From: Ascidia mentula
Taxonomy: Eukaryota > Chordata > Ascidiacea > Phlebobranchia > Ascidiidae
Length of the DNA: 64,000 nt
Reading direction: 5' to 3'
NCBI GenBank assembly: GCA_947561715.1
Contig: OX387198.1
Coordinates: 19,819,145 to 19,883,144, forward strand
Shown piece by piece: positions 6,123 to 62,182 of this stretch (the first letter of the stretch is position 1; each line of letters begins with the position of its first letter). The notes under the pieces are model-generated. The model did no database searches, had not been told where the DNA came from, and was given only the letters and a program-made list of their open reading frames with translations. A program made the translations under genes and the position numbers.

Positions 6123-6597
6123 ATTTTTCTATTTACGCAAAGTATGGTTTGTATTGCGCATAAAGATCGTCATAACAGACTAACAAACGTCTACGGCCGT
6201 AGGGAAACATGCGTGTTGCTACAATGGTTCCTGGTAATTCCCCTTACTAAATTTGTCAACATGTTGAAATCAACGCAATTTAAAAAATATTTCCCAACTA
6301 CACCAAAAAATAAAATACACCGATTTTATTCCAGGAACACTTAGTTCTGTTATGTTAATTTTGCATTGAATTTGGTTGTTTCAAATATCGGATGAGGGTA
6401 GAAATCTTCCTCCGGATCTTCTCCCTTTCCTCGTATGATCATCATCCCCAGATTTCCTCCTCCTTCTTTGTTCCTCATCCCACGATGGAATTTTCTTCGT
6501 ATCCGAGTTCGTTGTAGCGAGTAGCCAATCGTAAGGTCGCTTGCGCAGGCTGCAACGAGACTATTATTTTCACATTTTTTTCACAAAGCGAAAGCAC
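6123..6597. other. Array edge and 3' flank of the ankyrin gene
   Basis: Apart from the 5S stub and the 28-nt shared segment I see no gene. TTTATT at 6325-6330 is AATAAA on the minus strand and could end the ankyrin transcript. Confidence 0.5.
6189..6226 (+). repeat. 5S stub joined to a dispersed 28-nt sequence
   Basis: The first 13 nt of a 5S copy (6189-6201) run into a 28-nt segment at 6199-6226 that recurs exactly at 46684-46711. This marks the array breakpoint, probably an insertion or recombination junction. Confidence 0.7.
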
Positions 6598-9387: not shown

Positions 9388-12300
9388 ATGTCTTCTGCCA
9401 CTGTTGCTCCAAACAGAAATAGTGATGACAACAGCAGTGATGGAAGTTCTAATGGAGTAGATGGAAGTCAAAGAGGTTGGGAATTTCTTCTTCTCTCTAA
9501 ACTGGGATTAAATGTTTCTTGACAAATTACCACGGTGTAAAACAATTGGCTTCAAATGTTACTCCTGGCTGCTTTGGTTTAGTATGTACATATTTTAATT
9601 ATAATCAAGTTCAAAGCTATTCCATGCCATTATACTTCTAGTCATAAAAATAGTTGTGCTTTTATAACTTGCTGGTAGGGAGTGTACACAGAACACAGTT
9701 ATTCATTGTAGTTGAATATTGTGAAATGCACATGATCCCAATCAGACTTTGTGGTCTGTCTTACATCATGTTGGCATTCAAGTCAAACATAGGAGTGTTA
9801 TTGACACCATGCGACCAAAGTCCACAAAGATTAAACCTCTTATCATTACAATATTATCGGGAAAAACAAATTGTGAAATTGGAAAAGTTTTTTAATGTGA
9901 CTAATTTTCATGCATCAAATTGTTGTCATGGAGACAAATACTCATTAGTTTTTATGTCACTTGATGCAATGTAAGTCTTAATCAGAATGTGTGGTTTTGT
10001 CATAAAAGTCTTAATGCATGCATGGGTGGTTATGAATGGCCTGAAGGCAGCTTGATTAAGTCGCCTGATAACTCACAAAACCACTGATAATACATCAAGT
10101 GCAAGGAACTGCAGTTGTGATTTTTGATCACAGCAAAATTAAATTTGTTTACAATTGGTTACTTTGAATATATTTGACCCTAAACTGCTCTTGTTACATT
10201 GCCATGTATAGCAGCACCGCTAAATACAAGTCAGTTAAAATCAACCAACTATGCTTGGTCCAGGAAGCTGCATACTTCACTATTGGACATTTTATATTAC
10301 TTTGGGGGTTGTTTCTGTTACCCTTAGTGACGTCATATGTGTGTTTATGACTAATCTATGTTAAGTTTTTGCGATTATTCAACTTTGACATACAATGTTG
10401 TTCTATTAGTTTCTGTGTCTTGTTCCTAAATCACAGATAAAACTTTTTACACTAAAATAACGTTCAGAAGGTAAAGGAATAAATAAGAACCCGCGCCATT
10501 CCAAACCGTTTCGTCGAACCACCTTGTGACCCAAGGTAACCTCGACCAGAAGTAACCCGAGGCTATTCAGGCGTCGTCAGGGGGAAGTCCCATTCATTTA
10601 ACCGCATCGGATGGTTGAATGGCGGCGTTGATATCAATGCTGTTTTATTTTTGCAATATTCGTTTTAAACACATTTTATTTAGTGTGTTAAAATATAAAT
10701 ACATGTGTTGGAAGCCAAAGTTGTCAAATAATCCATTCGCGTGACCTCTAACTTGACCTCCAGTGACCCTAATAACACGTAACAATCAACCTCATATGGA
10801 GCCTTCTAGTTGTCACCACGCTTTCCTGCTTTAGAAAATAAATCACTTTAAATATACGTAATTTGAAACTCGATATTAAGTAAGTTGTGTAAAGGTGGTT
10901 TTTTCTCATCTAAATATTCGTCCTGCTGTTTCAGCTTTGCTTCCGCACGAAATCAAACCGCGTCATCCATCCCAGAAACAGGAAATGACGAAAAACCTCA
11001 CAAAAGAAGATGGCGGGGAAGAGATTTCACTGCGGAGAAAATATTTCACTGTTGGAATCCTCTTCACTATCAACTTGTTGAACTACATGGACAGATATAC
11101 AATAGCAGGTCGGACACCACTCTGTAAACTGTGAAACCTGAATGAATGTTTATTTATAAAACAATCAACAATTGCATGTAAATTTAACACTTTCTGTGTT
11201 AAGATTTGTTAAAAGAAAATCTTTAGTATATTCCTGTGTTATAATGCACAGAAAGCACTAGCTTATAACAACAAGATCAGCCTGGCTGTTGTTAGGAATA
11301 TGTATTTCCCATCATCAGTTCCTTCATGTAAGCACAATAATGTGATAAGGGCAGGCAATACACTGTGTTGCAAGCAGTGCATGAGAAGGCACGAGAATTG
11401 CCTGCTCAGCTCAAAGGCAGTATCGACCGCGTGAACATTGCAATCCGCAAATGTTCGGTTGATTTGCAAACATTGATTTGTGCTGAGTTAAGCTATGTTG
11501 TCGTCACCTTTATCAATGGTAAAACTGCTCTGTGACCGCGTGGCATATATATTCCATAATTATTGGCAAGTAAACTTTTGTTGGATTTTTTTTGTGTTGG
11601 TTGGGAGGGACTTATATGCAAGACATTGCTGGAACAAACCACTGCGAACAGTAGTTGGAACAAACCACTGCGAACAGTAGTAGTGATCGTCTGAGAGTGC
11701 AATTTGTTTGTAGTTTGATGAGCAAAGTGGAGCCAATAATATGAATTTTGTAAGCTGTCTGTACAGGTCAGAACACTGGCCATTTGTTTGCTGCTTACGC
11801 AGTGTTTGTAGTTTGTTAATATGCAAGATAGTGTCGGTGGTCTTTTATAGACAAGCATGGCACCTTGCTTAAGTGTTCTTTTTCTGAGAACTTGGCCTTG
11901 GAAACCAGGTCGCCTACATAGTCTGATTGCTTCACCCTATGCAATCGCCCTATAGACGGATAAAGGGTGGTGTGAGGCGCCGTGGCGAAACTTCCGGTGT
12001 GCTCCTGTTGCTTTTGTGAAGTCTTTTATAACAAACCTGAATGGATGGTCTGTGCTTGTAACATGCTTCACGTCCAAGAACTCCAATTCTTCGCAGTGCA
12101 AATGGTGCGGAAAGTTAATTTTAAATTATGTTTGGCCGGCGCTCGCTTGTTTTTTGTACGAACAACATAAATTACCGTCGCTGGAAAATATTTCTTTGCA
12201 TATCCGCTAAAAAAAGCAATTGCAAAAGATTTGAAGTAATTTAGTTGAAGACATTTATTATCAAAAAATCACCCAACTATCTTCTGAGATTTTAACTGCT

Positions 12301-15300
12301 CGAAGGTTTTTGTAAAAAAATATTTTGCAGTCGATAATACCAGGGGAGTTGACTTTGTTTTGAGTGGAGTGATTTTAATGCAGTTGTGTTGGCTTGAAAC
12401 CGAGAGCATTCAGGATGCTTTACAGGGAACTTCCTGGTTTATTAGAGGGTGACCTAAAGTAACCTTAATCAGAAAGGTTACTTTAGTTACACAAAATCTC
12501 AATCCCGTTAAAACGTTGCGTTTTCTTTATTGTTTAAATACAGCTAATTCCCCGCCACGTTTTTACAGCTCTGCATTGTCACCTACACACCTAGTAATAT
12601 AGCGCCCCAAGTGTTGTTGTTCCTTTATGTACTGCATACACGTGGTGGCGCGCTGGAGGGGTTAACATGCGAATCTTGTCTTCTTTCCCACGTTCTTGTC
12701 AGCTTTCCTGATTGGTTTAACCATCGGCTAATCAGGAAGCGGCACAAGGTCAAAGAGGTTGCTAGGTTAATTTCGTGTGAATAGTTAAAGTATTTTCGCA
12801 CAAGCAGCCTGATGAATATGTCGGATGGTCTGTAGGTCTATAGTCTAGACGTTGTTGATGTAATTTCGATAAAAGTTAATGTTCCAATTTCAACTCCCAA
12901 TCTTTCCCATGCTTTCTTATCATTTTCACGGGAGGCACAGGGTTGGTATTCGACGCTTGCCAGATTATGCGACTTGGTTGCACCAATCCACCGACGCAAA
13001 TAATCAACAAGTCTGCCCACAAGCGATTAAACACATGCCTCGTATTATTTGTTTGATGTAACAAATTGGAAGAATATCAGCAATTACAAATGTTCCATTG
13101 TAACCACCAACGTCGTCATATCGAAATTTGAGAAGCAACACAATAACATTTGTTTTTCAATTTTGTTTTTGATATCACACTTGTTACTAATCCAATTTAT
13201 CCGCAGGTGTTTTGCTGCAAATTCAAAACTTTTTTGAAATCAACAACGCATCAGCTGGATTTATACAAACCGTTTTCATCGTCAGTTACATGGTATTTGC
13301 TCCGCTGTTTGGTTATCTGGGCGACAGATTCAACAGGAAGATTGTGATGTTGGTTGGAATGCTGGTGTGGTCGGGATGTACTTTACTCGCTTCATTCATT
13401 TACAATAGACAAGTGAGTCATTCTCGTTTCACCCCCAATTATGACGTCACACTGTCACAAGACTGCCGGGTTCCAGTGACGTCACTCTTCAAGTCATCAC
13501 ACGTTTAGGATTTTTTGTATTCAGCGTAAACTTATTGGATGCACTTAACACTTGACCTTGACCCTAATTTTGCGGCCCGCGATTTTTATGTTAATTTATT
13601 TTGAAAGTTTGACCACAAACATGTGACATGTTTCACTACTTCCATTGTTGCATTATAATGATCATTATTCCCATTGTCTATACAATGACATCACATCGAT
13701 GATCCTTATTTACCTCAAGCAAATTTGAATATTTTCCAACACCCGCTTCAAGTAAAGTTCAAGTTCATTCGTCACGTGGTCTAAGCGTGGAAGTGACCTT
13801 GATTTAATCCGGTTTTATTTATTTGACCGGGCTGTGATAAACTTTACACAAAATATTACTTCAAACACCTTTCAAGTAGGGAACGCTCTTTGCCGCTTCG
13901 TGATTTCTTGGTTTTAGCGCTTCCGTGTTAGTTGTTACGTCATAATGCGTAACAGTCGGTTGTTAAAGGGGATTGAGCGCAATAAATATTGCGCAGTTAT
14001 TTCGTGTCTCTATTTCTCTTGTTGTTTATAATGTTGCCATTCTAAATTGAAAACTTCGTATAATAACCGTGCATGAATATTTGCCACAAGTTGCAAGGAC
14101 TGAAAAAACCCGCTGTGACGTCACGCTGTTCAGATAAAGTACTTTCCACAATGCATCACACTGATTCATGCTGTGCACTCAATATTAGGGGCGTGACGTC
14201 ATAGTAAAGATTGTTAGTTGTAACGCAACGCAAGGTAACAACGACTTTTCCTTGCAGCACTTCTATCTGTTCTTGTTACTAAGAGGATTCGTTGGGATTG
14301 GAGAGGCATCGTATTCAACCGTCGCCCCCACAATAATAGCCGATCTCTTTGTTAAAACTCAAAGAACTCGAATGCTTTCAGTGTTTTTCTTCGCCATTCC
14401 CGTTGGAAGGTAAGTTGTCGATATATGGGTCAAATACTTCCTCGTTCTCAAATCGCTCCCTGCGGCGTCCGCATACCACACATATTTCACGCTTCGCTAA
14501 CCACAGTCACGTGGTTTGTTGGGTGTGGCTTCGCATCTAAGTTTGTTTGTCGAGAAATAAGTGTTTTTGTGACGTAAAGTCGACTGACCAAGCTTTGTTC
14601 GAGAATATAGCTGCGTTAACAATGAATAATTGATTGTGACGTCACAAAATCTTGCTGTTGTAAGTTTTTTCACTGCCAGCAAATTTCGAATCAATTAAAT
14701 GCGTCTGGGCGCGTGACTTGCATTGTTACGTCGATCCTGCATAAAGTCCATTTTGACGTCATATTCCCGGAAGAGAATGCTTTCGAACGATTTGGAGCTG
14801 TTTCAATCGAACAGTGCGTTCTCTTGAGATACAGTTTTTCAGTGGTTCGTTTCAACTTTGTTAAAGTAGACGGAGCCAAATAGCTTTCCAATTAATTGTA
14901 TGTTGTTCCTTATTTGAAAGGTAACTGGAATAAGTTTAAAGTTGTAAATGTATTTGCTGCGTGTTTGATCTTATTGCATTTTTACGAAGTAACTTTTTAG
15001 TTAATTATCGACTGACAAGTTTGACATGGGACAGGTTGTGGTACCAGGCACTGGTAATATTTACAAGCTGATCAAACACTGGTGTCTTGTTACACATTTA
15101 CTTCGTGACAGCGCGTTCCGTTGATAAGGTCATTTGCTCAACAGCTACTGGTGGCGGTAATTTAGATTTTTACCGAATTTAGTTGACGTCACTGTGACGT
15201 GTAGTCAATAATCTAATATCGGTTTTTGTGAGACCAAAAAATGGTTGCGCGAGTTTATGTGCAATAAAAGAATGTATTTTTCACCACAAAAGTCGACCTG

Positions 15301-18300
15301 CGGTTCCATGCCTAGTTGACCGGTTCCGCTTGGATGCGTTCTCTCGTTTTTTTTTTTCTTTCGTCTCTCATAATATTTTCCACGTGATAGTCTGGGCCGT
15401 TCAGCAATTTAAGAAGTTTTCGTTTGAGAGTTCCAGCGGACGGTTTGCCGGGAAGTTTCTGCTTATCAGAGGTTTACGAATATTTGGTTAAACTTCCTTT
15501 GTGTTGGTAGCTGGGTTTTAATATTCACGAAATCTTTCAAGCTTGGAAGTTGTTCGTTTTGATGGTTTGAAACTTTAAGAAAGGTGGGGTTTTTCTGTTC
15601 TTATCCTTGTTTTTTGAAAGTTTTAGAGAAAACCTTGGTTATTTTCTATAGTTTTGACTCATTCTACGTCACAAAGAGTTAAAAAGTGAGTTTGAATAGT
15701 TGTGAGTGTAAAGTGACCTGGAAAGTACCTATTTTCTCTGTGGTTAATTGAAACCCAGTGATTTCTATGTCACAACGTGCTTGCAGGAAAAGGCGGGAAG
15801 GAACCACGTGGTGTAAAAACATAGAAACCATAATAAGTATTTTTCATATAATGGAGTTTTGTCATCAAATCTCAAGAGGTTTCTGTCAAACATGGACCGG
15901 CACTTTGCAAATTAACCCACTCTCCCCAAAAAACTTGTGTGACAAGCTGGACGTGACGTGCAATCATTGTGTGATGTCATAATAGGTCTGTCGTAATGTG
16001 CAACCTGTGTGATGTCATAATAGGTCTGTCGTAATGTTCAACCTGTGTGATGTCATAATATGCCAGTCGTAATGTGCAACCTGTGTGATAACATAATAGG
16101 TCTGTCGTAATGTGCAACCTGTGTGATGTCATAATAGGTCTGTCGTAATGTGCAACCTGTGTGATGTCATAATAGGCCAGTCGTAATGTGCAAAGCCCAA
16201 TCATGTCTAAACCAACACAATGTAGACGTATTGGATGTTGCACAAAACGGCTGACACCCTTCGAAGGGGTTGATGGCCAAATTGCTGCATCGTGCGTTCC
16301 CAACAATATTTAATGATGTTCAAATTTCAAATATCCATAGTAAATATATTGGTAAGAAACAAGAGTAAGGTTGAATTGATCCAAAGTGAGTTCAGACCGA
16401 GTAACGTTAAAGTGAGTGAACGCAGTGTTACAGCAATCATTAAACACCGCGTATTGTCCGGGAGGATACTCGAGCCAAGCACAGAGTTGTGGGTCTGGGT
16501 AGTTAATGTATGGCAGGCGACTGGTGCTGCTTGGAGAGGACGGCGCTTACATCACGCTAATGGAATGTTCCTGTTTGCCTTTTGGCAAAACGCTACTTCC
16601 AGCTAAAGCTTTGAGTGTGGGTCGTTGGAAACTCTTTATTGTGTTTGCAACGCTCTTCGACGCTTTGTTTCTGTTGATTGTGACGTCACTATTGTAACAG
16701 AACGCGCTAAGTGTTATCTAAGTTTGTGCAAAAAAAAAACAATTCACTGATTTTTTTCGTCGCAATCAAAAGCATTATTTAAACGCACTTGACGAATAAC
16801 TTAAATCCCCGCTTAAACTGCCTCATGCATCTGCATTAAGTGCAACATGCCTTTGCATAAAGTACCACATGCCTCTTGCATAAAGTGCCACATGCCTCTG
16901 CATTAAGTGCCACATGCCTCTGTATTATGTACAACATGCCTCTACTTAAAGTGCCACATGCCTGTGCATAAAGTGCCACATGCCTCTGCATTAAGTGTCA
17001 AATGCCTCTGCATGAAGTGCCACATACGTCTGCTTATATTTACCAAGTATCGTATTTTAGTGGACTTGGATACATCGTTGGATCTGGAGCAGCACAAGGA
17101 CTTGGATCATGGCACTGGGCACTCAGGGTTAGAACACATTTAAATAGGAACAACAACTAATTATTTCCTCATCTTAAAAATAATTTTATTCTGATTCGTC
17201 AAATTAGATTGAACATATTTCCTGTATGTTGTCGATAAAAACACCAAATTTAATTAAATTTTTTATTACTGTACCTTATTTCTTATGGTAGTTCACGCCG
17301 GTTTTGGGATTGGTGACAATGATTGTGATGATGATCGTGGTGCCCAACCCGCAACGTGGCGCTGTGGAGGCGAAGGACAAGAAATGCATCGAAACGAATG
17401 AAAACCAGAGAAATTATTTCCGCGACTTGAAACACATTCTGACCAAGTAAGTTCGCCGTAGAACCAATGAAATGAACCCCCTAAGTATTATGACGTCACA
17501 AGATAGCACCATGGCAACTTGATTCAACAAACATTTATTTTGACAGTAAAAGTTTTGTGCTGTTGACGATCGCTTTCACCTTCATGGCGTTTGTTGTTGG
17601 ATCCTTGACAATCTGGGGCCCAATTTACGTTGCTTACAGCCAGGTCGTCACAGGACAACTCGCACCATGCACTGATGACGCATGCGAATATGGAGAGTAT
17701 GTGATTGTGACGTCACACTGTGGTATTTTGTATTAGAACAGTGATTGTTTTTAGTGTTTCGTTTATATTCGGTCTTGTGACGTGCGTGGCCGGATTCCTG
17801 GGAGTTGTCATCGGTGCCGAAAGTGCCAAATTGTGGAAGGACAAAGGAAGGAAGAATGCGGACCCACTCGTTTGCGCCATCGGTATGATGACGTCATACT
17901 CTCTAGTGTACTGACGTAAGAATATTGTTTGCCGTTGCAGGTTTGTTAGCGGCGGGTCCTTCACTTTTGCTCGGGTTTCAACTGACGACTGTCAACCTTC
18001 CAGCTGCCTGGGTAAATCCATTGTGACGTAACAATTAAAACAGATTATTGAGAATTTGTTGGCGAATACTTACTGTTTACAGGTTTGTATTTTTCTTGCG
18101 GATATGGGGATGTGTCTAACTTGGACACTAGTGGGCGATATGACTATGGTATGATATCTATGTTTTGATTCTTTACCCATTGTTTTACTAACAATCGTTG
18201 TTTTAGTACGTAACAATGCCCAGTAGACGGTCGACCGCGAATGCTGTTCAAATCCTTACCATGCATTTATTCGGTGACGCCGGGAGTCCATATCTTCTAG

Positions 18301-19151
18301 GCGTGGTAAGTACAACTCACGGGCTCCCTCTCCCGACCTTAAAATCATTAAATTTCCCGTCACTGGAGGAAAGGAGCTAATCTGAGCCATACTTTATTAC
18401 CAGCTTTCCGACAGTCTGATCTCGTCAATGCCGGACACTTACTTCTCCAAATACATCGGTCTACAGCGCGCTATGTACATAACCTTGTTCGCTGCCGTTG
18501 TAAGCGGGGCTTCCTTCCTAGTAGCTGCACTTTTCATTGTAAAGGATAAACAAAAAGTTGACGACTGCCTCGCGGGTAAGGCTCATTCCGCTAGATGTCG
18601 TTAGAGTTCGGTAAATATGTGGATTCTGTGTTAGGTCGGTTGCCAGGCAACAAGGAACAAATCGAACTCGTCGACCGTGAATCTGTGATTTGAGCTTCTT
18701 TAAATTTGTCTGCGTTTAAACACTGTGAATAAATTATGTTGTTCATTATTACGTCTGATTGGAGCGACTGAGGTGATTGTGACGTGTGCAGTGCTGACGT
18801 AGAGCATGATTTTGTCGATGGAATCGTTGCAGTGGGGCTCCATGTCATGCCCAACCAATTTAAATGGTTTTATTCACAGGGAAGTCTTCAGTGACTGCCA
18901 GCACGACTTCAGACGAACTCACTCCGTTGTCCACGGATGCTGAGAGCGGTTCTAACACGCCTCTGACGTATCCAAACGAAGATGACGTCACTGCGATTCA
19001 ACCAAGTAGCGTTGACATCACCGTGCAACAACTACAACGCGACAATCAAGTCGAATTCGAACAATATGACAATTACCTGACTGTTGAACCACCGCGTGTT
19101 GGAACTGATGACGTCAGTCTATTAACGCCCGGGAAAGAAAGTGACGTATGA
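9388..19151 (+). CDS. SPNS1: Spinster-type MFS lysosomal lipid transporter
   Basis: Thirteen exons join to 1800 nt and 599 residues: 9388-9475, 10935-11108, 13207-13412, 14258-14409, 17061-17127, 17292-17446, 17547-17696, 17755-17882, 17941-18011, 18083-18148, 18207-18305, 18404-18575 and 18880-19151. All phases match. Spinster hallmarks in order are [10 protein letters not shown] (79-88, first membrane helix), [10 protein letters not shown] (123-132, MFS motif A), [16 protein letters not shown] (165-180), [14 protein letters not shown] near 200, GSWHWALR near 225, then GLVTCVAG and [11 protein letters not shown]. Vertebrate SPNS1 exports lysophospholipids from lysosomes; SPNS2 exports sphingosine-1-phosphate. 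I cannot separate these paralogues with certainty. The first 29 residues are Ser/Asn/Asp-rich; exon 1 rests on phase and a weak donor (AGAG|gttggg). The C-terminal tail is long and acidic, and an alternative last exon is at 18635. Confidence 0.93.
15968..16191 (+). repeat. 38-bp tandem repeat, about 6 copies
   Basis: In spinster intron 4. The unit AATAGGTCTGTCGTAATGTG plus CAACCTGTGTGATGTCAT starts at 15981, 16019, 16057 and onward. The minus-strand open frame across it is a repeat artefact. Confidence 0.9.
16815..17035 (+). repeat. 22-23-bp tandem repeat, about 10 copies
   Basis: In spinster intron 4, just before exon 5. Unit close to TGCCTCTGCATTAAGTGCCA plus CA, moderately diverged. Unlike the arrays in C1QBP and the LDLa gene, it does not resemble the adjacent splice site. 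Confidence 0.85.
18635..18693 (+). CDS. SPNS1: Alternative last exon of the spinster gene
   Basis: After exon 12 (ending 18575) there is a second acceptor (gtgttag|GTCGG) with an in-frame 59-nt exon. It encodes 19 residues after the split glycine codon, ends in RESVI, and has TGA at 18691-18693. AATAAA follows at 18728-18733. Using it gives a 528-residue protein in place of 599. The phase fit and the private poly(A) signal argue for real alternative termination. No transcript evidence is available here. Confidence 0.65.
18728..18733 (+). terminator. Poly(A) signal AATAAA for the short spinster isoform
   Basis: Canonical hexamer 35 nt after the alternative stop codon, followed by GT-rich sequence from about 18775. 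Confidence 0.6.
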
Positions 19152-25412: not shown

Positions 25413-28400
25413 ATGTCTTCAGCATTTGCAAGAAGTTTTACACAGTACGTTAGATCGTTTAAAATTTTCACAAAACCGACAACCAGGCAAGTTTTTTTTT
25501 ATAATTGGCCAATTGAAATAAAATGAAAGTGGTAGTGTTGTTGCTTTGCTTGATGTTTTTGTTCCATATTGATGGTAGTTAATGCAACTATTTAATTGTT
25601 GAACATAAATTAGATAACTGTTTGTGCACCTGTCTGTAGTTCTCATTGATCAATATATTTGTGCCAGTAAATTTGTTTTTTTAGACCTGAGCACATTTCT
25701 TCACTGTTGACCTCACACATTTTGTCTGTGAAAAGTTGTGCGCTATCTGGTCACAGTCGATCTTTGTGGTATCTTGCTCCAAGTTGGTCGCGCTCCTTTA
25801 ACGGAAAAAGCTCTGTTCCATCCCTGACCTGTAGTTGTGGTGGGTTCCACACAGAAAGTGAGTTTGACTTTTTATCACAATTTACTGCAAAATCAATGTA
25901 ATGTTTGGGATACAGGTGACAAAAAGTTCACAGAGCTGCTAAAAAGTGAAGTTTCAAATGAGAAAACAACCATGCTTGAAATTCCACAATTGTCAGATGA
26001 TTGGAAGGTTTCAATCAATGGAGCAGATTGTTCCCTTGAGAAGCAAATCAAAGGGGACAAGTAAGATCAACTTTTGTTATGTGGAAATTTTCTGCTAATT
26101 TTGCTGACATTCTGTGTTTTACTTTTTAACCTTTTAATGTGTTTGGTGGTAGATTGCTATTCTATAAACTGTTCCAAGAGCCAAATTACTGAAAAATGTC
26201 TATTTAGTGAATAAAAATTGTTGTTCTAGAATTAAAATTTTGTTCAACGTGAACCAGTCTGTACCCCCAGCTGGCGAGGATGACCCTGATGCTAATGAGG
26301 TATTTCCATAATACATTTTTTCTATTTTATGTCTTCTGTAAGATTGTGAATTACAATAAGCATTATCATTTATAGGTGACAAGTAATGGTGTTCTTGAAC
26401 ACCTTCCCGGGGTAGTAGATTCAAGACTACACGAGCTCAGCATATGAAATGCTGTCAATTTAATTTATATGTATTATCAGAGTACCACTTTGCATTAAAA
26501 ATAACCACATAATTGCTCAAACTCATTTTAATGTAAAATGTGCTATAATGTGGCAGCTGTCTATCAAAACAATTTGGCAGTAACATCAAGCTCAATAACA
26601 CAAGACCCTTAGTTTTAATAAGATTTATAAAATTTGAATGTAGTTCAGTTCTTGATAGCAACAGTTGTTATGCAAACCATGCCATAAAGCAATAATGTAA
26701 TTTCTGATAAAAGTACAGAAATAATTGTTACATCATAATTAGGGATATGTGGTACCCAATCCCACCACAATAAACATACAGTGAATTTGGTTGGGGTTAA
26801 TATGACCAGTGTATAAGTATGCAAATCTTAATTTTAAGGAAATCATATCCAAACCTGACTTTTCTGTGGAAATTGAAAAACCTTCAACGAAAGATGCTTT
26901 AACTTTTGATTGCTATTTTCCTGACGCAGAACTTGAAGATGAAACAGGTTTAAATTTTACTACTTTTTGTCCGGGGGGTAATTTAATAAACCTCTCATAA
27001 ATGTTTCTTTAATTGGATATTATGTTTATAAATCTGCTAACTATTTTCAGTAGTTGTCCAATGCAAATATAAAGTAGGTGAAGGAATGATTTTTGAATGC
27101 AGAATACCCAAATGTTTTCAGCATAAGGTCAATCATTTTGCACAGTGGGGAGATCACTGAAAAAACCTACTCAATAGAAATGGAAAATGTTGACTCCGTA
27201 AGTAATGTGTGAAGTTAGTTGAACATACAGGATAAAATATTTAGTCAAAGGTATACATGCGAAATGCGCAATAATAATAAATAGAGATGCCAACACATAT
27301 GTTTTGATTCATACTGGCCCTGACAAGTAAACTGCAGAGTAACTCAAAAATCATAAGGAATTATCTGCAGGTTTATCACAACTTTCCTCTAGAAAGCTGC
27401 AATAACATGCAAAGTTTAATTGTTTTGTGGATATTTTTGATTGTTTTGTAGGAAATGTACGACTGTTTTGTAGGAATTTTTGATTGTTTTGTAGGAAATG
27501 TACAATTATTTTGTAGGAATTTTTGATTGTTTTGCAGGAAATGTACGACTGTTTTGTAGGAATTTTTTATTGTTTTACAAGTAGGAAATGTACGATTGTT
27601 TTGTAGGAAATGTACGACTGTTTTGTAGGAAATGTACGACTGTTTTGTAGGAATTTTTGATTGTTTTGTAGGAAATGTACGATTGTTTTGTAGGAATTTT
27701 TGATTAATTTGTAGGAAATGTACGATTGTTTTGAAGGAAATGTACGATTGTTTTGTAGGAAATGTACAATTGTTTTGTAGGAGTTTTTGATTGTTTTGTA
27801 GGAAATGTACGATTGTTTTGAAGGAAATGTACGATTGTTTTGTAGGAATTGTACGATTGTTTTGTAGGAGTTTTTGATTGTTTTGTAGGAAATGTACGAT
27901 TGTTTTGTAGGAAATGTACAATTGTTTTGTAGGAAATGTACGATTGTTTTGTAGGAAATGTACAATTGTTTTGTAGGAAATGTACGATTGTTTTGTAGGA
28001 AATGTACGATTGTTTTGTAGGAAATGTACGATTGTTTTGTAGGAGTTTTTGATTGTTTTGTAGGAAATGTACAATTGTTTTGTAGGAATTGTACGATTGT
28101 TTTGTAGGAGTTTTTGATTGTTTTGTAGGAAATGTACGATTGTTTTGTAGGAAATGTACAATTGTTTTGTAGGAAATGTACGATTGTTTTGTAGGAGTTT
28201 TTGATTGTTTTGTAGGAAATGTACGATTGTTTTGTAGGAAATGTACGATTGTTTTGTAGGAAATGTACGACTGTTTTGTAGGAAATGTACGACTGTTTTG
28301 TAGGAAATGTACGATTGTTTTGTAGGAAATGTACGATTGTTTTGTAGGAAATGTACAATTGTTTTGTAGGAAATGTACGATTCCCTTTTGGAATTTCTCT

Positions 28401-28519
28401 CAGATCGGGGAATCGGTTCCGAATTCGGCGATGACGTCATCAATCTAGCCACTGCTGTTGAGAACCGCGAATACGTCAAATCATTGGAGAAGCTACACAA
28501 TTTCGTCAGTTGCAAGTGA
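25413..28519 (+). CDS. C1QBP: Mitochondrial p32 / C1q-binding protein (MAM33 family)
   Basis: Seven exons, 816 nt and 271 residues: 25413-25486, 25685-25857, 25916-26060, 26230-26299, 26839-26947, 27103-27197 and 28370-28519. Phases agree throughout. The N-terminus MSSAFARSFTQYVRS is basic and amphipathic, as in mitochondrial presequences. The MAM33 domain starts near CSCGGFHTESDKKF (about 74-87). It continues through ILFNVNQSVPPAG, FDCYFPDAELEDE and FSIRSI, and ends in YDSLLEFLSDRGIG and LEKLHNFVSCK. Known p32 proteins form acidic trimers in the matrix and support mitochondrial translation. Human C1QBP has 282 residues. Intron 1 is of the GC-AG type (ACCAG|gcaagt). The last intron is mostly a minisatellite whose units repeat the exon 7 acceptor. 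Confidence 0.95.
27417..28378 (+). repeat. 21-22-bp minisatellite containing the exon 7 splice acceptor
   Basis: About 44 units of two types: GAAATGTACGATTGTTTTGT+AG (22 bp) and GARTTTTTGATTGTTTTGT+AG (21 bp). Nearly every unit contains TTGTTTTGTAG followed by GAA. The last unit is the real intron-exon junction of C1QBP, exon 7 starting GAAATGTACGATT at 28370. The long minus-strand frame across it is spurious. Confidence 0.95.
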
Positions 28520-29633
28520 CGTCACCAGTATAGCGAAATAAAAACTTCTGCTTTTGTTTAGTTTACGTCTCTGGAATGAAAGCAAGTATTCAAGAGAAAT
28601 CTGAAACATTTGATTTTACCCAAAACGAAAAATATTTATTTACAATCGCGCTATTAAATTTTTATTGTCAACCTTAAAATCAACGAACATCTGTTTCATG
28701 AAGAGCTAAAAAGTTGCCAATTATCACGTGATGTGAAGGCAGTCAGTTGGAAGAAGGCGTTGCTAAGAAACGACATCAGTCGAGTATTTGCAAATATCCC
28801 AAACCAGGGGTCTGGTGATAATTTGCAACCCGATTATGGAGGGAGAACAAATTATTGGTTTGAGCTTCACCGTTTACCCACTACGAAAACCGATTGCAAT
28901 CCCAGCCACTGACAATCGTCACAACTTGGTGTTTGAAACCTCCCCATTCACTGTTTGTAGTTATTTAACATTTCTCGTTTCCATCTTGTCGGGGAGAGTT
29001 AGGATACGGAATGTATGGCGAAATAGCGGGAGTTCAACCATATGGAAAAGTTGAGCCCAACATTTCATCACTTATGTTTCGTGTATTGATGATGGATTTA
29101 CAGCAGCAGACAAAAAGGAATGCCAATGTGGTTTATTCAATCAAGTCATTCGCCACACCTTGTGCAAACCATTGCTAATATTTCAAAAGCAATGCTGGAC
29201 ACATAGCGTAAATTTCAACACATTACGTCGGTACAGTGGCCCTATCTGAAACTTTCGATCAAAAACTTATTTGAGTCGCGCACCCTGGGTGTAGAATAAG
29301 GGCTTCCAGGTTGTATAAAAATCAAATAAAAACGCCAACGAGGAAGTTTGAGAAACTTATTTATCTGCCACGCCTTGATATAACTAACTCTTGTATAAAA
29401 TGGATGGGTTTCGCCCGGTTGAGAAATTAATGTACTGTGACGTCAGCGGGAAAGGAGTTGGTTGTAGAATAGTCGCTTGACAGTTGAAGAGGAAACTAGT
29501 GGAAACTCCACGTCATACGTCCATAGAAATCATGTTTCCTGCTTGTCCGGGCATCCACAGTGACGTCATACGAGGATTTATTGCGGAAAGTTAGGGTTAT
29601 ATGAAAGTTGTTGGTTAGTTGGATGACAAGAAA
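28520..29633. other. Intergenic, C1QBP to LDLa gene
   Basis: No convincing exon or repeat. The frame at 28788-29054 has no family signature. Confidence 0.4.
28537..28542 (+). terminator. C1QBP poly(A) signal AATAAA
   Basis: Canonical hexamer 18 nt after the stop codon. Confidence 0.75.
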
Positions 29634-32600
29634 ATGGTTTGTCGAATTTTGTGCTGTATTGTGTGGTTATTGGTGGTATGTTTTAGCAGAGGTAAGATTC
29701 CATGTTTTAGTAAATTGAACTTTTGTGTTATATAACGTAGCTAAATATATTAGTTCCACAAATGTGCGGAAATCTGTGTTGGGAACATTTTCCTATATTT
29801 GTTTTAAAATAAAAATATTTCATAAAAATTACTTGATAATCATCTGGAAACTGCTAAGAACCCGGCCCACATATAAATCTGTTGAACAAAAAAATCTGGG
29901 TTGGTATTAAAACTAAAATACATTATAACGTCGTTTCACAGCCTTATATGTTGATCAAGTTTGTCGACCTGCATGGGTTAGATCGTTCTTTTACCTAAAA
30001 ATCTAGATTATATCTATCTGAAAAGCGGCTGGAATTTCCCATCTATTCATTACAGCGATTAACTAAGGTGCTGGAACATTGATTTTGACTTTTTTATTTT
30101 GCACGCAAAGTTAGTTCACATGAACAATAGAACAATAGAGCAAAATATTTAGCAAAGATTAAGTTTTTAGTAATATTTTGTGTTTTTCCTCAAACAAGTA
30201 TTTGGGCAACCTATTTTTACTTTGACGCCATAAAGATGGCTGTTGACGTCATAACGCGTTTGGTTTGTTTTGATTTAAAAAGTGGAATGAAACTTTATAC
30301 ACAGTGCAAGGTGTTCACTAAAGAAGTATTATTACCGACACCAATCAAGTTTTCAAAAGCAAATTATGATGTAATAGACACCCAGAATCTGATCAAATCA
30401 CTTTTATTTTGCACGCAAAGAACAATAGAGATGTACAACAATAAGGGTTATCGAGTCATATTTCCCCACAAACAATCACCGTCTGGCGTAGGATCGCAGT
30501 CCGTCGCACTGGGATGTGATGATGGGTTGAGACAGTAATCAGTGTTACGTCTCATACGTCACGAGATCAGTGTTACGTCACATGTTCAGTGGTACGTCTT
30601 ATACGTCTTGTGATGAATGTTACTTCACATACGTCACGTGATAAGTATTATGTCTCATACGTCACATACGTCACGTGATCAGTGTTACGTCACATGCGTC
30701 ACGTGATCAGCGTTACGTCGCATTCGTGACGTGACGTGATCAGTGTTACGTCACATACGTCACGTGTTTATCATTTCACAGGAAATTGTTCAAAGAAAAT
30801 CACTCGGATTTCTATGAGAGGTTTTGCTCCAGTTAATGACGGTCCATCCTCCCTCACTGGTGAGGTCATAATAGCGGGAGGTGACGTCATAGGAGGCACA
30901 GCGGTAATATATGTTTAATTTTATCTATTAATTTTCATGACGGCAACAATTATCATTATTTCCTCACAGGATGAGGGAAACAGCTCATGCGTGAAGTACA
31001 GCGAATTCGCTTGTAATGATGGTCAGTCATGCGTGTCGGTATTGCAAGAATGCAACAAAGTGGCTGATTGCTCGGACGGAAGTGACGAACACAGAAACTG
31101 CTCATATTTCTCATGCGGAGACGGAAGTTACATCAGTGCACTGTAAACAATCTTCAATTAAAACGAAGAATTTATTCCCATGTAAAACAAATTGGGGTTA
31201 AATACCTTTGCATTAATTTTGTTTTAAGATTTACTTGTGACGAATTCGAGGATTGTCCGGATGCAAGAGATGAAGATCTGGAACACGCGAATTGTTCGGT
31301 TGTGGAATGTGTCAATTCAATGATGGCTGTTGTGAGTTTTGTGATCTGAATTATTTCACGGTTTCATGAAATTAATTGTTTCAGGTGAGAGGCACTAATA
31401 TTTGTGATGGCATAAGCGACTGTCAAGACGACTACAATAGCGATGAATGCAATTGTTCTTTTACGTTTGTTTGCAAGAATAAAAAGTGAGTAATTACAGA
31501 TAATTTTTGTGACGTCTGTTTATGAGACGTGTACAACTCATGACACTTCATCACAAAATATTTTATATGATTAGGTATCATAAGAGATTTTTGAGTTTTC
31601 ATTTCAAACGATAGTCATATGATGGCGATTCTCTATTTTTCAGAGGCATTTACAGGTTTACGATAAAAATTCGCTCGATAATGTTCAGATTCATTCGAAT
31701 GATCAAGTTAATCATATGATCTCGATATTGTTCACAAGCATTCACATGTTCCAGTTTATCACATGATCTCGATATTGCTCAAGAGCATTCACATGATTAA
31801 GTTGATCATATGATCTTTATATTGTTTAGATGCATTCACATAAATCAAAGATGTGACGGTGACGATCAATGCGGAGATGGAAGCGACGAAGCCGATTGTC
31901 CTCGGTTTACATGTAACAATGGAGATCGCGTGCTCAGTAGTCGACTGTGCGACGGAATCGATCAGTGCGGTGACTCCAGTGATGAGTGCGATTGTACGGA
32001 TACATTTACCTGCGCCAACGGAAGGTAAAACCGATGCTCTTAATGCAAATGTTCAAATTATGCCTGTTGAACCATATGACTTGCAACCATCCGTTATAAA
32101 TGTTCAAATTGGATGCGTGTTGAACCATATGACTTGCAACCATCCGTTATAAATGTTCAAATTATATGCGTGTTGAACCATATGACTTGCAACCATCCGT
32201 TATAAATGTTCAAATTATATGCGTGTTGAACCATATGACTTGCAACCATCCGTTATAAATGTTCAAATTATATGCGTGTTGAACCATATGACTTGCAACC
32301 ATCCGTTATAAATGTTCAAATTGGATGCGTGTTGAACCATATGACTTGCAACCATCCGTTATAAATGTTCAAATTATATGCGTGTTGAACCATATGACTT
32401 GCAACCATCCGTTATAAATGTTCAAATTATATGCGTGTTGAACCATATGACTTGCAACCATCCGTTATAAATGTTCAAATTATATGCGTGTTGAACCATA
32501 TGACTTGCAACCATCCGTTATAAATGTTCAAATTAGATGCGTGTTGAACCATATGACTTGCAACCATCCGTCATAAATGTTCAAATTATATGCGTGTTGA

Positions 32601-35600
32601 ACCATATGACTTGCAACCATCCGTTATAAATGTTCAAATTATATGCGTGTTGAACCATATGACTTGCAACCATCCGTTATAAATGTTCAAATTATATGCG
32701 TGTTGAACCATATGACTTGCAACCATCCGTTATAAATGTTCAAATTAGATGCGTGTTGAACCACATGACTTGCAACCATCCGTTATAAATGTTCAAATTA
32801 GATGCGTGTTGAACCACATGACTTGCAACCATCCGTTATAAATATTCAAATTATATGCGTGTTGAACCATATGACTTGCAACCATCCGTTATAAATGTTC
32901 AAATTATATGCGTGTTGAACCATATGACTTGCAACCATCCGTTATAAATGTTCAAATTATATGCGTGTTGAACCATATGACTTGCAACCATCCGTTATAA
33001 ATGTTCAAATTATATGCGTGTTGAACCACATGACTTGCAACCATCCGTTATAAATGTTCAAATTATATGCGTGTTGAACCACATGACTTGCAACCATCCC
33101 TTATAAATGTTCAAATTATATGCGTGTTGAAACATATGACTTGCAACCATCCGTCATAAATGTTCAAATTATATGCGTGTTGAACCATATGACTTGCAAC
33201 CATCCGTCATAAATGTTCAAATTATATGCGTGTTGAACCATATGACTTGCAACCATCCGTCATAAATGTTCAAATTATATGCGTGTTGAACCATATGACT
33301 TGCAACCACCCGTTATAAATGTTCAAATTGGATGCGTGTTGAACCATATGCCTTGCAACCACCCGTTATAAATGTTCAAATTAGATGCGTGTTGAACCAT
33401 ATGACTTGCAACCATTCGATATAAATGTTCAAATTGGATGCGTGTTGAACCATATGACTTGCAACCACCCGTTATAAATGTTCAAATTAGATGCGTGTTG
33501 AACCATATTACTTGCAACCATCCGTTATAAATGTTCAAATTAGATGCGTGTTGAACCATATGACTTGCAACCACCCGTTATAAATGTTCAAATTGGATGC
33601 GTGTTGAACCATATGACTTGCAACCACCCGTTATAAATGTTCAAATTGGATGCGTGTTGAACCATATGACTTGCAACCATCCGTTATAAATGTTCAAATT
33701 AGATGCGTGTTGAACCATATTACTTGCAACCATCCGTTATAAATGTTCAAATTAGATGCGTGTTGAACCATATGACTTGCAACCATTCGATATAAATGTT
33801 CAAATTGGATGCGTGTTGAACCATATGACTTGCAACCACCCGTTATAAATGTTCAAATTAGATGCGTGTTGAACCATATGACTTGCAACCATTCGATATA
33901 AATGTTCAAATTAGATGCGTGTTGAACCATATGACTTGCAACCATCCGTTATAAATGTTCAAATTGGATGCGTGTTGAACCATGTGACTTGCAACCACCC
34001 GTTATAAATGTTCAAATTGGATGCGTGTTGAACCATATGACTTGCAACCACCCGTTATAAATGTTCAAATTAGATGCGTGTTGAACCATATTACTTGCAA
34101 CCATCCGTTATAAATGTTCAAATTAGATGCGTGTTGAACCATATGACTTGCAACCACCTGTTATAAATGTTCAAATTAGATGCGTGTTGAACCATATGAC
34201 TTGCAACCATCCGTTATAAATGTTCAAATTATATACGTGTTGAGCCATATGACTTGCAACCACCTGTTACAAATGTTCAAATTAGATGCGTGTTGAACCA
34301 TATCACTTGCAACCACCTGTTACAAATGTTCAAATTAGATGCGTGTTGAACCATATGACTTGCAACCATCCGTTATAAATGTTCAAATTAGATGCGTGTT
34401 GAACCATATGACTTGCAACCATCCGTTATAAATGTTCAAATTAGATGAGTGTTGAACCATATGACTGGCAACCATCCGTTATAAATGTTCAAATTAGATG
34501 CGTGTTGAACCATATGACTTGCAACCACCTGTTATAAATGTTCAAATTAGATGCGTGTTGAACCATATGACTTGCAACCATCCGTTATAAATGTTCAAAT
34601 TAGATGCGTGTTGAACCATATGACTTGCAACCATCCGTCATAAATGATCAAATTATATGCGTGTTGAACCATATGACTTGCAACCATCCGTCATAAATGT
34701 TCAAATTAGATGCGTGTTGAACCATATGACTTGCAACCATCCGTTATAAATGTTCAAATTAGATGAGTGTTGAACCATATGACTGGCAACCACCCGTTAT
34801 AAATGTTCAAATTAGATGCGTGTTGAACCATATGACTTGCAACCATTCGATATAAATGTTCAAATTGGATGCGTGTTGAACCATATGACTTGCAACCACC
34901 CGTTATAAATGTTCAAATTAGATGCGTGTTGAACCATATTACTTGCAACCATCCGTTAAAAATGTTCAAATTAGATGCGTGTTGAACCATATGACTTGCA
35001 ACCACCCGTTATAAATGTTCAAATTGGATGCGTGTTGAACCATATGACTTGCAACCACCCGTTATAAATGTTCAAATTGGATGCGTGTTGAACCATATGA
35101 CTTGCAACCACCCGTTATAAATGTTCAAATTGGATGCGTGTTGAACCATATGACTTGCAACCATCCGTTATAAATGTTCAAATTAGATGCGTGTTGAACC
35201 ATATTACTTGCAACCATCCGTTATAAATGTTCAAATTTGATGCGTGTTGAACCATATGACTTGCAACCACCTGTTATAAATGTTCAAATTGGATGCGTGT
35301 TGAACCATATGACTTGCAACCACCCGTTATAAATGTTCAAATTAGATGCGTGTTGAACCATATGACTTGCAACCATTCGATATAAATGTTCAAATTAGAT
35401 GCGTGTTGAACCATATGACTTGCAACCATCCGTTATAAATGTTCAAATTGGATGCGTGTTGAACCATGTGACTTGCAACCACCCGTTATAAATGTTCAAA
35501 TTGGATGCGTGTTGAACCATATGACTTGCAACCACCCGTTATAAATGTTCAAATTAGATGCGTGTTGAACCATATTACTTGCAACCATCCGTTATAAATG

Positions 35601-38600
35601 TTCAAATTAGATGCGTGTTGAACCATATGACTTGCAACCACCTGTTATAAATGTTCAAATTAGATGCGTGTTGAACCATATGACTTGCAACCATCCGTTA
35701 TAAATGTTCAAATTATAAACGTGTTGAGCCATATGACTTGCAACCACCTGTTACAAATGTTCAAATTAGATGCGTGTTGAACCATATGACTTGCAACCAC
35801 CTGTTACAAATGTTCAAATTAGATGCGTGTTGAACCATATGACTTGCAACCATCCGTTATAAATGTTCAAATTAGATGCGTGTTGAACCATATGACTTGC
35901 AACCATCCGTTATAAATGTTCAAATTAGATGAGTGTTGAACCATATGACTGGCAACCATCCGTTATAAATGTTCAAATTAGATGCGTGTTGAACCATATG
36001 ACTTGCAACCACCTGTTATAAATGTTCAAATTAGATGCGTGTTGAACCATATGACTTGCAACCATCCGTTATAAATGTTCAAATTAGATGCGTGTTGAAC
36101 CATATGACTTGCAACCATCCGTTATAAATGTTCAAATTATATGCGTGTTGAACCATATGACTTGCAACCACCTGTTATAAATGTTCAAATTATATGCGTG
36201 TTGAACCATATGACTTGCAACCATCCGTCATAAATGTTCAAATTATATGCGTGTTGAACCATATGACTTGCAACCATCCGTCATAAATGTTCAAATTATA
36301 TGCGTGTTGAACCATATGACTTGCAACCATCCGTTATAAATGTTCAAATTATATGCGTGTTGAACCATATGACTTGCAACCATCCGTCATAAATGTTCAA
36401 ATTATATGCGTGTTGAACCATATGACTTGCAACCATCCGTCATAAATGTTCAAATTATATGCGTGTTGAACCATATGACTTGCAACCACCTGTTATAAAT
36501 CTTTAAATTATGCCTGTTGAACCGTATGACTTGCAACCATCCGTTATAAATGTTCAAATTATATGCGTGTTGAACCATATGACTTGTAACCATCCGTTAT
36601 AAATGTTCAAATTAGATGCGTGTTGAACCATATGACTTGCAACCATCCGTTATAAATGTTCAAATTATATGCGTGTTGAACCATATGACTTGCAACCATC
36701 CGTTATAAATGTTCAAATTATATGCGTGTTGAACCGTATGACTTGTAACCATCCGTCATAAATGTTCAAATTAGATGCGTGTTGAACCATATGACTTGCA
36801 ACCATCCGTTATAAATGTTCAAATTAGATGCGTGTTGAACCATATGACTTGCAACCATCCGTTATAAATGTTCAAATTAGATGCGTGTTGAACCATATAA
36901 CTTACAACCACCTGTTATAAATGTTCAAATTAGATGCGTGTTGAACCATATGACTTGCAACCACCCGTTATAAATGTTTAAATTAGATGCGTGTTGAACA
37001 ATATGACTTGCAACCACCTGTTATAAATGTTCAAATTGGATGCGTGTTGAACCATATGACTTGCAACCACCCGTTATAAATGTTCAAATTAGATGCGTGT
37101 TGAACTATATGACTTACAACCATTCGATATAAATGTTCAAATTAGATGCGTTTTGAACCATATGACTTGCAACCATCCGTTATAAATGTTCAAATTGGAT
37201 GCGTGTTGAACCATATGACTTGCAACCACCCGTTATAAATGTTCAAATTGGATGCGTGTTGAACCATATGACTTGCAACCACCCGTTATAAATGTTCAAA
37301 TTGGATGCGTGTTGAACCATATGACTTGCAACCACCCGTTATAAACGTTCAAATTAGATGCGTGTTGAACCACATGACTTGCAACCATCCGTTATAAATG
37401 TTCAAATTAGATGCTTGTTGAACCACATGACTTGCAACCACCTGTTATAAATGTTCAAATTAGATGCTTGTTGAACCATATGACTTGCAACCATCCGTTA
37501 TAAATGTTCAAATTATATACGTGTTGAGCCATATGACTTGCAACCACCTGTTACAAATGTTCAAATTAGATGCGTGTTGAACCATATGACTTGCAACCAC
37601 CTGTTACAAATGTTCAAATTGGATGCGTGTTGAACCATATTACTTGCAACCATCCGTTATAAATGTTCAAATTAGATGCGTGTTGAACCATATGACTTGC
37701 AACCACCCGTTATAAATGTTCAAATTGGATGCGTGTTGAACCATATGACTTGCAACCACCCGTTATAAATGTTCAAATTAGATGCGTGTTGAACCATATG
37801 ACTTGCAACCATTCAATATAAATGTTCAAATTAGATGCGTGTTGAACCATATGACTTGCAACCATCCGTTATAAATGTTCAAATTGGATGCGTGTTGAAC
37901 CATGTGACTTGCAACCACCCGTTATAAATGTTCAAATTGGATGCGTGTTGAACCATATGACTTGCAACCACCCGTTATAAATGTTCAAATTAGATGCGTG
38001 TTGAACCATATTACTTGCAACCCTCCGTTATAAATGTTCAAATTAGATGCGTGTTGAACCATATGACTTGCAACCACCTGTTATAAATGTTCAAATTAGA
38101 TGCGTGTTGAACCATATGACTTGCAACCATCCGTTATAAATGTTCAAATTATATACGTGTTGAGCCATATGACTTGCAACCACCTGTTACAAATGTTCAA
38201 ATTAGATGCGTGTTGAACCATATGACTTGCAACCACCTGTTACAAATGTTCAAATTAGATGCGTGTTGATCCATATGACTTGCAACAACCTGTTACAAAT
38301 GTTCAAATTAGATGCGTTTTGAACCATATGACTTGCAACCACCTGTTACAAATGTTCAAATTAGATGCGTGTTGAACCATATGACTTGCAACCACCCGTT
38401 ATAAATGTTCAAATTATATACGTGTTGAGCCATATGACTTGCAACCACCTGTTACAAATGTTCAAATTAGATGCTTGTTGAACCATATGACTTGCAACAA
38501 CCTGTTACAAATGTTCAAATTAGATGCGTGTTGAACCATATGACTTGCAACCATCCGTTATAAATGTTCAAATTATATACGTGTTGAGCCATATGACTTG

Positions 38601-39276
38601 TAACCACCTGTTACAAATGTTCAAATTAGATGCGTGTTGAACCATATGACTTGCAACGGATTGGACGATTGTGGAGATGCCAGTGATGAATGCGGTTGCC
38701 GGGATTCATTTCATTGTAACAACGGCCGTTGTATTCAAAACGTTTTTGTTGGTAAGAACAATGTTATTGAAAACACTCGGTCATGGCCTGAGAAGGGGCG
38801 AATTTTTAATACCCGTCATATAATTGACCTGTGACACAATACCTATAATCTGATGTACAAGCGATAAATTCAACTTCATGCTTATTTTGTTCTCTCTTTT
38901 TTCGGCACTTTCATAACAAAATAATCGCTGTGCAGGAAATGACGTTGACGATTGCGGGGATAATAGTGACGAAATACAACATACCACTAAATCTATCCCC
39001 CAAACCGCCTCACACATAACGTCATCACCCAATAAACAACGGCAATCTACACTTTATAAGATGCAAGACACGACGAGAGCCGATACGACCTTGAATGTGA
39101 AAGAAGGTCAAAACTTTCAAACAACTCATTTGTCTACAACTTCTAAATACCAGGGAACTCCCCAAGACCAAAAATCGCCTTTCCAAACCACGTCATCTTC
39201 CAGTGTCCCTGACAACGATTCGTGCTTTATTTTCACATTTGTTGTTTCCATGTTTGTCGCCGTATCACAAATATGA
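29634..39276 (+). CDS. Secreted/GPI-anchored protein with seven LDLa modules
   Basis: Eight exons, 1215 nt and 404 residues: 29634-29691, 30782-30903, 30970-31142, 31229-31331, 31385-31485, 31830-32024, 38630-38751 and 38936-39276; all phases match. Exon 1 encodes a hydrophobic signal peptide (IVWLLVVCF). Seven LDL-receptor class A modules follow, with the acidic calcium-binding S-D-E signature: [45 protein letters not shown] and CGDNSDE. Then comes a Ser/Thr/Gln-rich stalk of about 90 residues, probably O-glycosylated. The end, [18 protein letters not shown], is hydrophobic with no cytoplasmic tail, which suits a GPI-anchor signal. LDLa modules bind ligands at the cell surface; the ligand is unknown. 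Modules 2, 3, 5 and 7 lack cysteines. Intron 6 is filled by a 6.6-kb minisatellite. Confidence 0.85.
30537..30770 (+). repeat. Tandem repeat of about 28 bp, ACGTCACATACGTCACGTGA type
   Basis: Just before exon 2 of the LDLa gene. Irregular units built from CAGTGTTACGTC, CATACGTC and ACGTGATCA, giving a dense cluster of ACGT cores and CACGTG E-boxes. It may be regulatory or only a repeat. Confidence 0.8.
31623..31850 (+). repeat. 47-bp repeat, five units including exon 6 start
   Basis: GCATTC-type cores occur at 31646, 31691, 31738, 31785 and 31832, spaced 45, 47, 47 and 47 bp. The last is exon 6 itself (attgtttag|ATGCATTCACAT). Upstream units keep acceptor-like sequence (tttttcag|AGGCATTT and atgttcag|ATTCATTC), with more divergence than in the big arrays. 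Confidence 0.8.
32036..38657 (+). repeat. Giant 53-bp minisatellite, about 124 units
   Basis: It fills intron 6 of the LDLa gene from about 12 nt after the donor (32025) to the exon 7 junction. Unit: GTGTTGAACCATATGACTTG, CAACCATCCGTTATAAATGT, TCAAATTAGATGC. Three junction variants exist: ATTAGATG, ATTATATG and ATTGGATG. Only ATTAG keeps the AG used by the real acceptor at 38628-38629. The first 28 nt of exon 7 are the last unit. Blocks repeat at 1484 bp, exactly 28 units. Confidence 0.97.
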
Positions 39277-40031
39277 CAATTTCTCTGACGCTTGATGGCG
39301 CTGTACATAACCGATTTTTGTGCTCGACCCTGGAAATTAAACTGGCGGGCGGGTGTTTGGCAGCATTTGTCAAGCGCCCGATCGGGTTTCGTGACCAGAA
39401 TATCCTGTCTCACCTCACGGTTGTTCGTTGAATTTCAGTGAAGCCCGGCTTGGTTAAACGTGGGAGTACGGCGGTACCGCATAGTCACCTCACAGTATGT
39501 TAGTTGAATTTCAGTGAAGCCCGGCTTGGTTAAACGTGGGAATACGGCGGTATCGCGTATTCACCTCACAGTATGTTAGTTGAATTTCAGTGAAGCCCGG
39601 CTTGGTTAAACGTGGGAGTACGGCGGTATCGCGTAGTCACCTCACAGTATGTTAGTTGAATTTCAGTGAAGCCCGGCTTGGTTAAACGTGGGAATACGGC
39701 GGTATCGCGTACGGGTGTGAGTTGAATCCCGGTATGGTCTCGAGCCAATTAAATATCCAATCTTTTATCGCGATTCACAAACCGATGAAAGTGTCGTCAT
39801 AAATCATAAGACTGGTCGAGAAAGAACGGGATTATGACGTCACGCAGAGTTGAAGAATGTGGATAATCCTGATTGATTCCGCATGACCTAGTAGCGCTGG
39901 AAAATGAAAAATATTGATTGATTTTTTATCGGGTTTGAAGACAATGGGTTTTAGAACTAGTTGATTGTCCACTCGCGAATCTGGCATTATTTCATTCGAA
40001 CTCATTCGCGACGGCAACTCAAGAAAACAGC
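39277..40031. other. Intergenic, LDLa gene to CRALBP gene
   Basis: Contains the SINE-like repeat. The remainder (39736-40031) should hold the CRALBP promoter; no clear core element is seen. Confidence 0.45.
39336..39735 (+). repeat. tRNA-derived SINE-like element with internal 76-bp repeats
   Basis: The head GGCGGGTGTTTGGCAGCATT plus GTCAAGCGC resembles a polymerase III A box and matches 60666-60700. A 76-bp unit starting GAATTTCAGTGAAGCCCGG begins at 39430, 39506, 39582 and 39658, four exact-period copies. The tail GAGTTGAATCCCGG resembles a B box. It lies just after the LDLa gene stop. Confidence 0.6.
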
Positions 40032-61685: not shown

Positions 61686-62182
61686 AAATTACGACGAAAC
61701 CAATGTTTTTTTGCACTGCCAAATTTCTTGCCATATTTGCGACGACGGGAAACTCCCTGAATAGATATTACCACCGCTGTCATACGTTTTGTACAAACTG
61801 TTCCTTTTTGTTCTTCGGCGATCGCGTGGTTCCCTTTGTACGTAAGGTGTCAAACGTTTTTTTAAACGATTATCGTTTTATGTAATAAAATCTATCAATA
61901 ATTGCAGCGACTTACTTCAAATAATTCAAAAGAAACATTACAAGTAGATCGGCCGAACCCACAAAATACGTTGAATCGTTTTACAAAGTACAGCTTGAAG
62001 GCCTCAAAAATTATGTTTTCTTGACCTCTTTTTGACGAAATCCAGACAGCGTTATAACAGTACCTGCACCTGAGCAGATTGGTTAAGGTTAGGTCATAAT
62101 ATTTGCAACAGGGAGAGACGAACGTGTTTCGCGACCTAGTAAAATTGTAATAAAACTAAAAGCTGTTGATATAAACGTATGG
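61686..62182. other. BTB 3' UTR and minimal subtelomere
   Basis: Apart from the poly(A) signal there is no gene and no satellite. Sequence is unique up to the first TTAGGG. Confidence 0.6.
61884..61889 (+). terminator. BTB gene poly(A) signal AATAAA
   Basis: About 200 nt after the stop codon and about 290 bp before the telomere. Confidence 0.65.

Follow-up and report, generated by a model that had tools for sequence, protein, structure and literature searches.

Mirages are tandem duplications that lie across an intron-exon boundary of a functional gene. Those of the amphioxus Adh3 gene were reportedly described by Canestro et al. in 2002. According to the account in PMC3087553, the Adh3 units measure 10-72 bp, and mirages are also found in two amphioxus globin genes, BflGb6 (units of 150-160 bp, 6 in one haplotype and 3 in another) and BflGb9 (a duplicate of 157 bp); further cases, in PGBD5 and TnC of amphioxus, are told of in PMC3902484. 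The Adh3 data and RT-PCR suggested, as these papers relate, that mirages leave splicing undisturbed even though many of the copies keep their AG or GT (PMC3087553; PMC3902484). Here we describe an array in an LDLa gene of the tunicate Ascidia mentula that shows every mirage feature we examined in sequence and belongs to this known kind. The mitochondrial COX1 gene is read properly if AGA/AGG are translated as glycine, as in the ascidian code, but with none of the other tables tried, which marks the host as a tunicate. The DNA analysed (the window) comprises the terminal 64 kb of a contig of 19.88 Mb.

Anatomy of the LDLa array and its gene

Intron 6 of the LDLa gene, the exons of which (5-8) are numbered as in the first-pass annotation of this DNA, consists almost entirely of a tandem array (Table 1), for which TRF reports a period of 53, 124.8 copies and 94% matches. 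If the array is split at its TTCAAATT core, 125 unit starts are obtained, with 122 spacings of 53 nt and 2 of 51 nt (the final unit was taken as 53 in the unit tally). The unit reads AAATGTTCAAATTAG/ATGCGTGTTGAACCATATGACTTGCAAC/CATCCGTTAT, with 15 nt from the end of the intron, 28 nt from the beginning of the exon and a further 10 nt of intron. In the last unit the acceptor TTCAAATTAG (38615-38629) is intact and is directly followed by exon 7 from 38630 on, the match between exon and unit extending over 28 nt to 38657. Chance cannot account for 28 exonic nt repeated across 6.6 kb. The first-pass annotation, made from the letters of the sequence alone, had identified the start of exon 7 with the core of a unit present in about 124 copies, had called the array an acceptor-plus-exon minisatellite and had noted that the unit adjoining exon 7 keeps its acceptor. 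All three statements hold; of the limits it gave, the end is correct, but the start (32036) was set 11 nt too early.

Table 1. Positions in the window of the three arrays and of the exons and intron that they adjoin. A slash between sequences marks the exon-intron boundary; TRF, tandem repeat detection.
Feature	Position	Strand	Basis or remark
C1QBP/MAM33 22-bp mirage, 44 units, TTGTTTTGTAG/GAAATGTACGA, true boundary 28369/28370	27419..28382	+	TRF
C1QBP/MAM33 last exon, to stop codon	28370..28519	+	end read by eye
Degenerate 47-bp mirage at LDLa exon 6	31634..31841	+	4 upstream copies and true boundary 31829/31830
LDLa exon 6, ends ..GGAAG/gtaaaa, phase 2	31830..32024	+	splice-phase model and in-frame translation
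LDLa intron 6, 6605 nt, 99.7% array	32025..38629	+	all but 22 nt are array
LDLa array, 125 units (53 bp)	32047..38657	+	final 28 nt are exon 7
Last unit: true acceptor TTCAAATTAG/ and ATGCGTGTTGAACCATATGACTTGCAAC	38615..38657	+	completes LDLa domain
LDLa exon 7, 122 nt	38630..38751	+	splice-phase model; frame lost if skipped
LDLa exon 8, to stop codon	38936..39276	+	splice-phase model

Exons 5-8 share one open frame, which is shifted by the skipping of exon 7. Intron 6 splits an LDLa domain that becomes complete, with all six cysteines (PF00057, E 1.8e-8), when splicing takes place at the last unit; the peptide that would result from a decoy acceptor matched no family in a Pfam search. The whole product, 344 aa read by eye and free of stops, matches PF00057 with an E value of 2.9e-39. 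With such an open product it is hardly conceivable that the gene is a decayed copy in which decoy acceptors would be irrelevant. Among the 110 matches listed (150 of 471 candidates scored) there is no close paralogue whose intron lacks the array, and the best-scoring one of them outside the gene is 40% identical. Within the single assembly at hand, no haplotype or relative with an array-free intron was found.

Sister arrays at the chromosome end

The same arrangement is present at two further acceptors nearby. The claim that acceptor-plus-exon arrays occur independently in another gene and with another unit length is borne out by the 22-bp array of the C1QBP/MAM33 gene, the product of which, read by eye, matches the MAM33 family (PF02330, E 1.9e-17). 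A third case, not yet noticed then, lies at exon 6 of the LDLa gene itself. Its copies start at 31634, 31679, 31726, 31773 and 31820 (the last being the true one), and all of them span the boundary. This recurrence, three cases in all, bears on the suggestion that the LDLa array is an ordinary intronic minisatellite which touches the exon by accident, so that the overlap would be meaningless for origin and splicing. Indeed, for eight of the 11 arrays in the window's genic part no spanned acceptor was recognised (gene structure was partly read by eye), as such a suggestion would have it. However, the LDLa unit holds 28 exonic nt exactly at a domain boundary that is defined by homology, and together with the recurrence this makes an accident very improbable.

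The window ends in perfect TTAGGG-type telomere repeats (62181-64000, 303 copies; TRF) and therefore represents a chromosome end. Its positions 1-6198 are filled by a 184-bp tandem array, which we take to be 5S rRNA-like; the same period covers 1-19042 and 28210-40000 of the 40 kb preceding the window (L030-L033). Directly after the LDLa gene there are four copies of a 76-bp unit (39410-39711; TRF). Furthermore, a 34-bp array of 71 copies (57688-60096) lies in the intron downstream of an exon that by eye is BTB-like. Its unit aligns to the upstream donor CTTCCTGTTTGCTTCAG/GTGAGA with a score of 21 (maximum in 200 block shuffles, 20; one of 22 tests), and this resemblance is too weak to claim a donor-side mirage without GT in the BTB-like gene. 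In the joined block L010-L029, a 20-bp array occurs twice in inverted orientation (184488-184698 and 188597-188807), ~4 kb apart and with flanks that by eye are similar, an arrangement resembling the termini of a mobile element.

With a threshold of a period of at least 15 and at least 2.5 copies in one standard TRF setting, the genic part of the window (6199-62180) contains 11 arrays in 56 kb, and a block of C1 contains 9 arrays in 200 kb, none of which, judged by eye without gene annotation, lies at a clear exon start. No such array was found in 20 kb from two interior stretches with 16 listed LDLa matches (8 each), nor in 6 kb near the end of C67. The genic part of the window is probably enriched in arrays, which says nothing about chromosome ends in general, and so small a sample gives no rate of arrays. 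A pattern search for clustered TTTTCAG returned 588 places in forward and 14 in reverse orientation (12 and 1 for the reversed-pattern control), while the rearranged motif TTTTAGC gave 0 and 2 (control, 1 and 1). As the first-listed TTTTCAG places fall in one array with a 42-bp unit (C1, 24.869-24.875 Mb), this search is no measure of mirages. Note that the unit of that array (G000:C1:24869217-24874725), which holds TTTTCAG, has a length that is a multiple of 3 and is perhaps a coding repeat.

Growth of the array and choice of one acceptor

The LDLa array is very probably a mirage-type minisatellite: the junction was duplicated and amplified in place, and the last acceptor is presumably chosen by exon definition. 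A 53-bp segment covering the 3' end of intron 6 together with the first part of exon 7 would have been duplicated in tandem and amplified through unequal exchange or conversion, partly in blocks of several units. Each new copy would arise upstream of the functional boundary and would, owing to this position, be intronic from birth, provided that splicing uses the acceptor adjoining the complete exon with its donor.

The arrangement of the units fits block copying. Identical LDLa units recur most at lags 4, 28, 74, 46 and 1 (109 lags tried), and the identity at the top lags is 15-19%, compared with 5.4% for any two units. The last 601-nt stretch, taken from the LDLa array and its flank, had 33 listed matches in the genome, all inside the LDLa array, and the stretches of the sister arrays with their flank matched only themselves (6 and 1), with the reservation that this DNA search omits very common words and absence elsewhere is not absolute. 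Each of the arrays therefore seems to have grown in place, and an origin from a dispersed satellite or a transposon-derived repeat was rejected, as every listed match lay within the arrays themselves. An error of assembly, enlarging the LDLa array or mixing units into it, has to be considered since a single assembly is available, and the array size could still be off. Nevertheless, the 124 upstream units comprise 46 distinct sequences that recur at fixed lags, and both DNA and protein searches of the genome lead to a single locus; we thus regard such an error as highly unlikely.

Among the 124 upstream units, the acceptor dinucleotide is AG in 62, AT in 35, GG in 24 and TG in one, and it is deleted in two. 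The three classes AG, AT and GG had been correctly named before; TG and the deletion are two minor additions. AG at other places than the acceptor occurs in nine variant units only (six at column 26, three at column 19). As many as 39 of the upstream units are identical to the last one across the 15 intronic and 28 exonic nt, so the sequence near the acceptor alone cannot explain the choice; none of these 39 also matches the last unit in all of the 38 nt before that stretch. All intact decoys (62/62) read on into a stop within 1-21 codons, mostly TAA after 13 codons (51 cases), otherwise TGA after 21 (8) or after 1 codon (3). The earlier expectation that the use of a decoy leads to TGA in the next unit thus holds only in part.

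In exon definition, an acceptor is recognised as a pair with the donor at the other end of its exon (PMC3488318). This appears to be the most likely selector in the LDLa gene, in which the last copy alone belongs to a complete exon of 122 nt that is followed by a donor, and it is presumably this acceptor that is used in the mRNA. RNA structure was considered as a mask for the decoys as well. The 305 nt folded (38456-38760) gave no sign of it, the predicted folding being weaker than that of shuffled sequences (z +1.5; equal or better folding in 95 of 100 shuffles).

The loss of AG from so many units raises the question of whether AG-destroying units are favoured by selection because decoys cost mRNA. 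No other adjacent pair of the LDLa unit is broken as often as AG (62 of 124 units; next pair, 57; rank 1 of 52), with a mean of 32 deviating units at columns 14-15, 0.46 at columns 1-13, 2.04 at the exon-derived columns 16-43 and 11.8 at columns 44-53. The pair is also the highest in the number of backgrounds carrying more than one state (6/37; next pairs, 5), and the sole deletion type within the array removes it. However, these losses comprise three substitution kinds and one deletion type, found in blocks of related units, and owing to the block copying that relates the units their counts are not independent. Of 40 substitution kinds only those three hit AG (~1.5 expected for two columns of 53), and columns 46 and 48, for which no role in splicing is known, deviate at a level (50 and 24 units) similar to that of columns 15 and 14 (37 and 27).

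The sister arrays speak against selection, too. In C1QBP, AG/GA is kept in 42 of the 43 upstream units, the sole exception being the first unit (the tally covers all 43 units; the ranking of AG was done on the 31 that are 22 bp long, with AG broken in 0/31). In the exon 6 array, the aligned AG is kept in two of four upstream copies (31634 and 31679), and those that lost it (31726 and 31773) have another AG 3 and 1 nt downstream, respectively. In the comparison that the first-pass annotation had suggested, for an excess of AG-destroying variants, AG does rank first, but with so few mutation kinds and with AG kept in C1QBP, selection is an unlikely cause of its loss.

Counted against the distance from exon 7, the share of intact AG in five parts of the array is 3/24, 17/25, 15/25, 11/25 and 16/25, starting from the donor end. 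Loss is hence densest far from exon 7, unlike what protection near the exon would produce, and this too argues against selection on decoys. The contrast between the first LDLa units (AG lost in 21/24) and the last ones before the exon (9/25), together with the position of the sole AG-less upstream unit of C1QBP at the start of its array, could be read in terms of position: copies near the donor, which would be transcribed and encountered by the spliceosome long before the true exon is, may have been selected to lose AG, while those near the exon may be shielded by exon definition. We consider this positional self-disarming more doubtful still. In one block-copied array such a pattern is inseparable from drift, and units at the edge of an array decay anyway; in general, one array of related units is insufficient to decide on selection on AG. 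Duplication and amplification in place, with exon definition choosing the last acceptor, remains the reading that we prefer.

Comparison with amphioxus mirages and other systems

The LDLa array amounts to a natural experiment, in which a single 3' splice site has to be selected from dozens of copies that are nearly the same, and it is an example of the growth of an intron to 6.6 kb with the protein unchanged. Competition of neighbouring acceptors is familiar from NAGNAG tandem acceptors, where they are 3 nt apart; in the LDLa array they are 53 nt apart, and each intact decoy runs into a stop. Tandem copying over splice signals is likewise the basis of the Rogers model of intron gain through tandem duplication, as named in PMC3087553. 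In contrast to this model, the LDLa copies enlarge an existing intron, and no new intron is shown. No tunicate mirage was found in the literature searched, in which a case could be missed, and the passages of the Ciona huntingtin paper that match four terms (PMC1636649) contain none.

The closest counterparts are the amphioxus mirages, as far as they are described in the accounts cited above. They share with the LDLa array the minisatellite-like tandem duplication of a unit across the intron-exon boundary (15 intronic and 28 exonic nt here), the retention of the splice dinucleotide, AG or GT, in many but not all copies (62 of 124 here) and the position of the authentic boundary, here that of a protein-coding LDLa gene, at the edge of the array. 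What is new is the host, a tunicate rather than a cephalochordate, the size, with 125 units and 6.6 kb, and the occurrence of three cases within a stretch of about 11 kb at one chromosome end. The range of mirages thereby comes to include a tunicate besides the cephalochordates, and the process may be more widespread among chordates than the small number of amphioxus reports implies.
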